In this document: one piece after another, positions 4,091 to 47,649 of the stretch
How the letters are laid out: each line of letters starts with the position of its first letter
How positions within the stretch are numbered: position 1 is the first letter of the stretch
DNA from: Gammaproteobacteria bacterium
GTDB taxonomy: Bacteria; Pseudomonadota; Gammaproteobacteria; HK1
Length of the DNA stretch: 51,661 nt
NCBI GenBank assembly: GCA_022826505.1
Contig: JAJDUQ010000344.1
Span: 1 to 51,661 of the forward strand
Direction: 5' to 3'
Notes under the pieces: model-generated
The model's database searches: none
The model's input: only the letters and a program-made list of their open reading frames with translations
Told to the model about the DNA's origin: nothing
Program-made: the position numbers and the translations under genes

Positions 4091-4948
4091 ATGAACCGCA
4101 CCGTCTACGTCAACGGACAATTCGTCTCCGAAAGCGACGCTCGAATCTCGATCTTCGACCGCGGATTCCTGTTCGGGGACGGAGTGTACGAGGTGTCGGC
4201 GGTGCTGGACGGAGGTCTCGTCGACAACACGGCGCACCTCGCGCGGCTTGAACGCTCGCTCGGCGAGCTCGGGATGGACTCGCCGGCCACGCTCGAGGAC
4301 ATCGAACGAGCCCAGAAGGAGCTCGTCGCGCGAAACGACCTCGACGAAGGCATCGTCTATCTGCAGATTACGCGCGGGCCCGCCGATCGGGACTTTGCGT
4401 ATCCCGCCGAGCCGAAACCGACGCTGGTGATGTTCACGCAGAAGAAGGCGCTCGTCGACAATGCGCTCGCGGAGCGCGGGATCGCGATCGTCACGGTGCC
4501 CGAACAGCGCTGGCGGCGGCGCGACATCAAGACGGTGGGGCTGCTCGCGGCGTCGATGGCGAAACAGGCGGCGCTCGATGCCGGGGCCGACGACGCCTGG
4601 ATGGTCGAGGACGATTTCGTCACCGAGGGCAGCTCGAACAACGCCTGGATCGTGACCGGCGACGGGGTCGTGGTGACGCGCAATCTCGGCAGCGAGATCC
4701 TGCACGGCATCACCCGCGCGGTCGTGCTTCAGCTCGCGCGCGAGCGTCAGATCGCAATCGAGGAGCGGGCGTTCACCGTCGAGGAAGCGAAGAGCGCCGC
4801 GGAGGCGTTCATCACCAGTGCCTCCACGTTCGTGCTCCCGGTGGTCGGCATCGACGGCGAGACGGTCGGGGACGGCACGCCGGGTCCGATCACGCGCCGG
4901 CTGCGCGAGATCTACATCGAGTCCGCGCGGGCGGGCGCCGATCGGTAG
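4091..4948 (+). CDS. dat: D-amino acid aminotransferase (fold-type IV)
   Basis: A 285-residue class IV PLP aminotransferase. It has the family pattern SIFDRGFLFGDGVYEV near residue 20, the PLP lysine in WRRRDIKTVGLLA (Lys147), and VTEGSSNNAWIV. The arrangement matches D-alanine transaminase more closely than IlvE or PabC. It would convert D-Ala and 2-oxoglutarate to pyruvate and D-Glu. The ATG at 4091 is used because the family starts with a short strand (RTVYVNGQFV). Its divergent pairing with alr supports a D-amino-acid supply or catabolic role. Confidence 0.88.
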   Translation: MNRTVYVNGQFVSESDARISIFDRGFLFGDGVYEVSAVLDGGLVDNTAHLARLERSLGELGMDSPATLEDIERAQKELVARNDLDEGIVYLQITRGPADRDFAYPAEPKPTLVMFTQKKALVDNALAERGIAIVTVPEQRWRRRDIKTVGLLAASMAKQAALDAGADDAWMVEDDFVTEGSSNNAWIVTGDGVVVTRNLGSEILHGITRAVVLQLARERQIAIEERAFTVEEAKSAAEAFITSASTFVLPVVGIDGETVGDGTPGPITRRLREIYIESARAGADR

Positions 4949-4996
4949 TCCTCCCGGCGCCCGCGCGACGCAGGGTCACGCTGGAGGGAGGTAAAG

Positions 4997-5089: not shown

Positions 5090-5788
5090 TCAGTCGGCGG
5101 CGTCCGGCATCGAGCCGAATTGCGGGGCCGCCTTCGCGCCGCGACGATGCAGATTCACGACGAACTCGCGCTCGAACGAGTCCGCGACCGAGCCGACGAC
5201 CCGCTCGTTCGCGAGCAGCGCATCCGACCACGCCTGAACCAGCGGGAACTCCTTCAGCAACCCGCAGCCAAGTCTGGTCTCGACGAAGGCGTAGCGCATG
5301 AAGAACGGAGCGTAGGCCGCGTCGACGAGGCACAGCTCCGGCCCGTTGAAGTACGGCCCGTCGTTCTCCCGCTCCTTCGCGAGCGCCTCTTCGAGCTTGG
5401 CGAGCCGGCGGCGCGCGGTTTCCATCCGCTTCGCGAGGGCGACCTCGTCCGCGGCGTAGTACACGCCGCCGAAGTCCGCCGAGAAGTCCGGGACGAAGTC
5501 GGTCCAGGCCCGGTTCCGCGCCCGCTTGACCGGGTCTTCGGGATGCAGGCGGGGCGGCACCATCTCGTCGAGAAACTCGGCAATCGCGTTCGACTCGAAC
5601 AGCGGCCGCCCGTCGACGGAGAGCACCGGCACCTTGCCGTGTGGAGAGATTTCGAGAAACCAGTCCGGCTTCTCGCGGAGATTGATGTACGTCACGTCGA
5701 ACCTGACGTCCTTGGCACGCAACACAATCACGGCGCGCTGTACCCAGGGTCAGGTCACGGAGCTGATCAGGTGGTATTCGTCGTTCAT
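5090..5788 (-). CDS. GST-like protein with an in-frame UGA at the active-site Cys position (predicted selenoprotein)
   Basis: Read from ATG 5786-5788 the product begins MNDEYHLISSVT, meets a TGA at 5750-5752, then continues PWVQRAVIVLRAKDVRFD in the same frame for 219 more residues. The family has the pattern YxLISxxxCPxVQR, so the UGA (residue 13) sits exactly on the redox Cys of the thioredoxin-like N domain. The rest is a typical GST: ISPHGKVPVL, LFESNAIAEFLDE, then an all-helical C domain. Downstream of the UGA a stem (nt 6-17 with 25-36, one bulged A and one bulged U) closes a 7-nt loop with G at position 2, beginning 17 nt after the UGA, as in bacterial SECIS elements. Without read-through the only start (GTG at 5731) would lack the first strand and the active site. 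The ribosome site upstream of the ATG is weak. The alternative is a one-base error or a nonsense mutation. Confidence 0.75.
5714..5752 (-). promoter_or_regulatory. Candidate bacterial SECIS element following UGA
   Basis: On the minus-strand RNA, UGA (5752-5750) is followed by a hairpin. GGUAC pairs with GUGCC, then after a bulged A, GCG pairs with UGC, then CGC pairs with GUG across a bulged U. The apical loop is CGUGAUU. It begins about 17 nt after UGA and has G as its second base. These agree with known bSECIS constraints (loop 16-37 nt downstream, early loop G, bulged U in the upper stem). The folding was done by hand; several pairs are G-U. Confidence 0.55.
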
Positions 5789-47120: not shown

Positions 47121-47465
47121 TCAGCCCGCAAGCACCGACGCGTACTGCTCTTCGTTGAACCCCACCAGCAGCGTCTTCCCCGAGCGCACCGTGGGTGCAC
47201 GCAGGTTGCCGGTGGGACCCAGCATTGCGTCCACCATCGCGTGACCGGGGCTGCCGGAGACGTCGAACGTCGTCACCTTCTTCCCCTTGGAGACAATCAG
47301 GGTCTCGCACTGACTGGCGAGCGCGACCGCGTCGTCACGTCCGAGCTTCTTCGATGCAAGCACGACATCGTCTGGCACGAGACGATGGGCGTCCATGAAA
47401 TCGGACGCCTTCCGGCAGCTCGTTCACCCCTTGCGAAAGTAGTACCAGTTGATCTGTCGGCTCAT
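47121..47465 (-). CDS. ArsC-family protein with in-frame UGA in the CxxC position (predicted selenoprotein)
   Basis: From ATG 47463-47465 (GGGAG upstream) the frame reads MSRQINWYYFRKG, a TGA at 47424-47426, then TSCRKASDFMDAHRLVPDDV and onward for 101 residues in all, ending ALLGPTGNLRAPTVR-type text (MLGPTGNLRAPTVRSGKTLL) and VGFNEEQYASVLAG. ArsC-like relatives have G-C-T-S/T-C here, so the UGA (residue 14) replaces the first redox Cys, giving UTSC. A perfect 7-bp stem with an 8-nt loop starting with G follows at 15-36 nt. The whole gene (114 residues) has normal family length. Read conventionally, only a 91-residue fragment without the active site would remain. The role is probably thiol/selenol redox chemistry rather than arsenate reduction proper. 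Confidence 0.82.
47388..47426 (-). promoter_or_regulatory. Candidate bacterial SECIS element following UGA
   Basis: On the minus-strand RNA, UGA (47426-47424) is followed by GGCGUCC (47409-47403), loop GAUUUCAU (47402-47395) and GGACGCC (47394-47388). All seven pairs are Watson-Crick. The loop starts 21 nt after the UGA and its first base is G, as required for SelB recognition in the bSECIS model. The fold was made by hand. Confidence 0.75.
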
Positions 47466-47649
47466 TGTCCGCTCCCGTGGTAGTCCGCGCACCGAATGAC
47501 GCGCCGGGTGCGCCGTTGCGTACTGCCGGAAGTCGAGGTTCGTTTCCCGGCAACGTTTCTTCCGTTCCGTGGCGCGACAGTATGGTGACACACGTGCGTC
47601 GCCGTCCACGCCGCGCGCCCTGCAGTGCACACCGGCGCCTTCGACCCTC

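Follow-up and report, generated by a model that had tools for sequence, protein, structure and literature searches.

A well-supported ArsC-family selenoprotein gene with a SECIS-like hairpin in a gammaproteobacterial contig

The locus and its UGA codons

The window, by which is meant the whole stretch of 51,661 nucleotides analysed here (contig JAJDUQ010000344.1 of the Gammaproteobacteria bacterium assembly GCA_022826505.1), carries a small ArsC-family gene with a UGA codon inside its reading frame (Table 1). The frame opens with the ATG at 47465, closes with a terminal TGA at 47123-47121 and holds a single extra in-frame TGA, at codon 14. With Sec at this codon, the 114-residue product begins MSRQINWYYFRKG-U-TSCRKASDF... 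and has ...LGPTGNLRAPTVRSGKTLLVGFNEEQYASVLAG as its C-terminal end. The initial annotation, made from the letters alone, had proposed an ArsC-family selenoprotein with the UGA at the first Cys of a CxxC-type motif, a hairpin behind it and a gene otherwise intact from ribosome site to stop; coordinates, frame, UGA, motif and hairpin were all recovered as it described them, and the gene does run from its GGAG to the terminal TGA. In the nearest relative, L025, an AGGAG is found at the same spacing from the start as the GGAG of the window.

Table 1. Features of the window, with the details and the basis of each assignment.
Feature	Positions	Strand	Details	Basis
ArsC-family selenoprotein gene (well supported)	47121..47465	minus	114 codons, Sec at codon 14 (UTSC)	Reading frame, NF041106, Pfam ArsC
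Sec14 UGA codon	47424..47426	minus		TGA in 10/10 distinct homologues, Cys in 32/32 wider relatives
GGAG, likely ribosome-binding site	47472..47475	minus	6 bases 5' of ATG	
SECIS-like hairpin	47388..47409	minus	7 bp, 8-nt loop with G first	Sequence, fold, conservation
Companion GST-fold UGA gene (likely selenoprotein)	5090..5788	minus	UGA at 5752-5750, N-terminal catalytic position, U-P-W-V-Q-R	

Upstream of the gene the window has a class-III aminotransferase gene and one of the enolase superfamily; an AI-2E-type transporter and tol-pal genes lie downstream on the other strand; the gene order around L025 is similar. A second gene of the window had also been described as reading through a UGA, with a hairpin of its own. 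This GST-fold gene, whose product reads MNDEYHLISSVT-U-PWVQR..., reaches 67.1 bits against GST_N_2 when read through, and both this match and its motif support the proposal, but its hairpin fails the strict model, which gives nothing better than -2.1 kcal/mol in this gene; the 60 nt from the UGA onwards fold at -21.5. On the strength of motif, family precedent and machinery, the gene is likely to encode a selenoprotein of a catalogued GST-like family. When the window was scanned with a motif filter for redox-type UGA sites, 12 candidates were returned, among which a recognised context was seen by eye only in the ArsC-family gene; the same filter missed the GST-fold gene, so the scan is not complete. 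There would be two UGA-reading genes in one 52-kb stretch, and standard annotation would truncate both.

Conservation of the UGA codon and of the downstream hairpin

Of the 13 loci given by a scan of genome contigs, nine are Sec forms (L025-L033), three are Cys forms of Bacillaceae (L035-L037) and the remaining one is L034. A separate genome search added L024, which belongs to the genus of the window's genome; L023, identical to L025 over the gene, was counted once with it. L034 (1-110), a Planctomycetota homologue, starts at a contig end, matches from residue 17 only and was excluded from all UGA and hairpin counts; unrelated letters replace its Sec site, probably reflecting an assembly edge. 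The homologues come from records with titles such as Gammaproteobacteria, Desulfuromonadaceae, Krumholzibacteriota, Phycisphaerae and others. TGA occupies the equivalent codon in 10/10 distinct homologues covering the site, all of which read through to full length. The motif around it is UTSC in seven (L025-L027, L029-L032), URSC in L024, UTGC in L028 and UTTC in L033, so that UxxC with an in-frame TGA, the arrangement expected of an NF041106 member, is present in all ten homologues and, as UTSC, in the window protein. Protein alignment A1 comprises 10 rows without L024, which is included in the DNA alignments A2 and A3; identity to the window protein is 43-85% over A1 and about 64% for L024. 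Among the residues invariant in A1 are W7, R11, G13, Sec, T15, C17, K60, G61, K62, R89, P91, G102 and F103. Decay in homologues sharing the TGA had been named as an observation that would speak against a selenoprotein: all ten are intact, and in the codons 3' of the UGA the comparison of the window gene with L025 gives a dN of 0.106 versus a dS of 0.52. The 13 codons 5' of the UGA yield, in the same comparison, a pN of 0.046 and a pS of 0.24, numbers that stem from 1.5 changes each and are too small to count as evidence.

The alignment of U with Cys was followed in 32 wider relatives, made up of the three Bacillaceae Cys forms and 29 loci from a class-level search in which 108 other genomes had any match and 29 of them gave loci for alignment. 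The Sec column holds Cys in all 32, as would be expected of a bacterial selenoprotein with Cys homologues. This part of the earlier proposal therefore stood, but the second Cys of the supposed CxxC is present in 5/32 only; the C17 column has I, V or M in the other 27, which makes CxxI/V/M the prevailing form. P91, G102 and F103 are kept in 32/32, and no Cys-form member above the NF041106 cut-off was met among the wider relatives aligned.

These comparisons bear on two readings in which no selenocysteine is involved. One takes the UGA as a true stop, so that the locus would be a decaying pseudogene or would yield a 91-residue product from an internal ATG at 47396. UGA terminates translation in most genes, and the internal frame from 47396 is indeed open; however, the same TGA with intact flanks recurs in all ten homologues, which are independent assemblies, W7, R11 and G13 just 5' of the UGA are invariant in the 10-member alignment, and a start at the internal ATG would lose both the catalytic residue and Cys17. 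This reading is accordingly very improbable. Even less credible, to the point of being hardly conceivable, is that the TGA arose from a Cys codon by a sequencing or assembly error: the window does belong to a draft of many contigs, yet the identical TGA is shared by the two same-genus assemblies, those of L024 and of L025, and by eight other genomes. Both the pseudogene and the error were rejected on the ten homologues with the same TGA.

The hairpin that follows the UGA has the sequence GGCGUCC-GAUUUCAU-GGACGCC, with its loop at 47402-47395. In the bSECIS model of PMC13188914, the loop has 3-9 nt with a G as its first or second base, at 16-37 nt from the UGA, the stem has 4-16 bp and the energy is at most -7.5 kcal/mol. 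The window hairpin falls within each of these limits (Table 1), with its loop G at 21 nt and an energy of -13.0 kcal/mol. It had been presented as a perfect, nearly textbook bSECIS lying immediately behind the UGA. The pairing is perfect and the model is respected, but this says little on its own: folding of the 57-nt stretch gives a z-score of -0.56, and 56/200 shuffles fold equally well or better. The loop G is where it was said to be, but 14 nt separate the UGA from the stem. Taken by itself the hairpin is weak evidence, for the GC-rich window yields such stems by chance fairly often. On both strands of the window a stem of at least 7 bp with the same geometry follows 153/1,111 TGA triplets (13.8%), and the bSECIS model as coded, with G-U pairs allowed, accommodates 120/1,110 window TGAs; an energy of -11.0 kcal/mol is reached by 32/1,110 and that of the Sec14 hairpin, -13.0, by 20/1,110.

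Conservation is more informative in this respect. A hairpin stands at the equivalent place in 11 genes, the window gene and the ten homologues, in two registers one base apart. In register one (window, L024-L027, L032), 87.5% of 48 cells are paired, a level that 2/500 shuffles reach and that drops to 27-40% when the register is slid by 1-3 columns. Register two (L028-L031, L033), with a three-base G-U-N loop, has 95% of 40 cells paired (10/500 shuffles; slid controls, 38-58%). Changes on both sides affect only 1/8 pairs in register one, a count that 231/500 shuffles attain, and three pairs in register two. Between the window and L025, GCG->GCA and GAC->GAT, both synonymous, jointly convert a stem G-C into A-U. 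The agreement among homologues has its exceptions: L026, L027 and L032 (3/11) have an internal mismatch and for this reason do not pass the strict energy test for a contiguous stem, the conserved stem is missing from the minimum-energy fold of L027, and in L029 another register scores equally. A chance hairpin was weighed in view of the z-score and the many similar stems in the window, and it was rejected on conservation and pair changes; it is for these reasons, and not because of its stability, that the hairpin is judged to be above chance. At gathering scores Rfam gave no match in the window, in which no tRNA was found either.

Selenocysteine machinery and distribution of the family

The draft genome comprises 6.23 Mb in 346 contigs, is 94.5% complete and has an estimated contamination of 7.36%. 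The search for sel genes suggested by the initial annotation was answered in the affirmative: SelA, SelB, SelD and tRNA-Sec, the set expected where a bacterial selenoprotein is made, are all found over their cut-offs in this one genome. Contig C70 carries selA (571.5 bits vs a cut-off of 268), selB (369.7 vs 242) and, just downstream of selB, selC at C70:14428-14519 (73.6 bits vs a gathering score of 47), and selD is on C338 (301.7 bits vs 125). The sel genes are on contigs other than that of the window; contamination is an unlikely source of them, because selB exceeds its cut-off in the same-genus genomes G001-G004 as well. More broadly, selB was above the cut-off in 15/15 genome records searched, including the genomes of L025-L034; among these records G004 and G382 appear to represent a single genome, and G002 and G003 are without the Sec-ArsC gene. 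As a side observation, selC starts right behind the selB stop codon with zero spacer (L016, C70:14428-14522); selC overlapping selB in Gammaproteobacteria is mentioned in PMC13188914.

The family is sparsely distributed. Above the stated cut-offs, the window's genome was the only one with a member among the 369 sampled genomes of the class, and again among 398 genomes of the phylum at E 1e-12. In an order-level sample 3/17 genomes have a member, all in one genus; as the same-genus G002 and G003 have selB and lack a match to the protein, its presence appears patchy even within the genus. No relative was found in a scan of viral contigs with the alignment, nor in a plasmid collection.

What the sequence shows directly is the reading frame, a UGA kept among homologues, Sec aligned with Cys, the hairpin, the sel genes and the family to which the protein belongs, and the gene may be regarded as well supported as a selenoprotein gene. 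SelB and Sec-tRNA would read UGA-14 as selenocysteine, guided by the downstream hairpin, and Sec would in this way actually be inserted at codon 14. Very probably, then, the product is a genuine selenoprotein of the ArsC-related family NF041106, with UGA-14 read as Sec by SelB with the help of that hairpin.

Family, likely role and comparison with known systems

The family search bore out the assignment made from the letters. The window protein matches NCBIfam NF041106, 'ArsC family (seleno)protein', with 113.4 bits vs a cut-off of 85, over model positions 1-107 of 107, and NF041106 is listed for 10/10 members of A1 (individual scores being given for the first member only). Pfam ArsC (PF03960) is matched at 26.5 bits vs a cut-off of 24. 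After NF041106, the nearest families by sequence are of the Spx/MgsR type, at 25-27 bits and under their own cut-offs (Spx families, 26.9 bits vs 152 and 25.6 vs 123; Spx/MgsR-type, 26.7 vs 75.05). The classical glutaredoxin-linked ArsC model TIGR00014 is absent from the seven NCBIfam families listed for the window protein and had no match at E 0.001 across the whole genome. The best AlphaFold2 model, built from A1 with Cys in place of Sec, has a mean pLDDT of 90.4 and a pTM of 0.84, the other four of the five having mean pLDDT values of 67-74. In Foldseek against the PDB the top ranks go to Spx, YffB and a protein resembling Spx (E 4e-4 to 8e-4, TM about 0.5), with arsenate reductase 3f0i at rank 13 (E 0.016), and a profile search against PDB sequences has 2m46, 'Arsenate reductase, putative', as its first match (E 2.7e-7), followed by Spx entries. 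Both its sequence and its predicted fold place the protein closer to Spx and YffB than to the classical arsenate reductase.

The protein is likely to work through selenol/thiol redox chemistry. In the predicted thioredoxin-like ArsC/Spx/YffB fold, Sec14 would begin helix 1, with Cys17 three residues on. Sec14 would most probably attack an oxidised substrate or a disulfide, Cys17 would then resolve the selenyl-sulfide, and the protein would act as a small selenol/thiol oxidoreductase; we infer both this two-residue mechanism and the redox role.

More specific functions can be weighed against this background. A Sec-dependent reductase of arsenate or another oxyanion, replacing the usual ArsC, would agree with the Pfam ArsC match, barely above its cut-off as it is, with the lack of a TIGR00014 match in the genome, and with R11, K60, K62 and R89, which do not vary among the 10 U-type proteins and could form a basic pocket near Sec. 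Such a function is nevertheless doubtful, given that the nearest families past NF041106 are Spx/MgsR-type, though below cut-off, that the best PDB matches are to Spx and YffB, and that 0/7 genes Pfam-tested or read nearby in the window are arsenic genes; moreover, the TIGR00014 negative covers the glutaredoxin-linked ArsC, and the genome may have an arsenate reductase of another type, such as the thioredoxin-linked one. Arsenate is a possible substrate, not a favoured one. The fold and profile matches to Spx structures speak for a Spx/YffB-like regulator or adaptor in which the Sec-Cys pair serves as an oxidation sensor, the CxxC switch of Spx being at the position equivalent to Sec14/Cys17. 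This, too, is unlikely, as the scores stay far from the Spx and Spx/MgsR cut-offs, and Sec generally marks catalysis and less often sensing.

More speculatively, the family could be one of selenium-dependent reductases, acting on an oxyanion or a peroxide, with a basic pocket of their own (R11, K60, K62, R89) and a chemistry distinct from ArsC, Spx and YffB, partnering other selenoenzymes; this idea is tentative and rather unlikely. The partnering is suggested by L032, whose Sec-ArsC gene sits 44 nt downstream of a gene for a Sec-containing glutathione peroxidase. That gene, at 4507-4956 (+), has its in-frame UGA at 4588 (ASQ-U-GLTSQY), and the two are likely to form a two-selenoprotein operon.

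Compared with known proteins, the oxidoreductase favoured here is like Spx and YffB in its predicted fold and in the position of its redox residue, the differences being Cys for Sec and a central region that is shorter or otherwise unlike. It shares a fold superfamily and the catalytic position with classical ArsC (TIGR00014), whose model it does not match; classical ArsC has a C-x-x-S motif, in contrast to U-x-x-C in the window protein. ArsC-like selenoproteins were known in 2006 from two sequences, of Desulfotalea psychrophila and Desulfuromonas acetoxidans (PMC1794560), and the Global Ocean Sampling selenoproteome of 2008 listed 'Arsenate reductase 2' (cd03032, UxxC) with 42 sequences and a GST selenoprotein family with 12 (PMC2398784). 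In reviews, both a UxxC family resembling arsenate reductase and a GST-like family are catalogued (PMC9312934, PMC13188914), and the 'Arsenate reductase-like protein' with UxxC corresponds by name to NF041106 ArsC_rel_Se_1 (PMC13188914). The window protein resembles 'Arsenate reductase 2' (PMC2398784) and the 'ArsC-like' proteins (PMC1794560) in ArsC family, UxxC and occurrence in proteobacteria, a likeness drawn from their descriptions. With NF041106 ArsC_rel_Se_1 it has in common a full-length match over the cut-off, UxxC and a similar size, and no defining difference was found. The Sec-ArsC protein thus belongs to an already catalogued selenoprotein family and opens no new kind of system; it extends a sparsely found family by one well-supported case.
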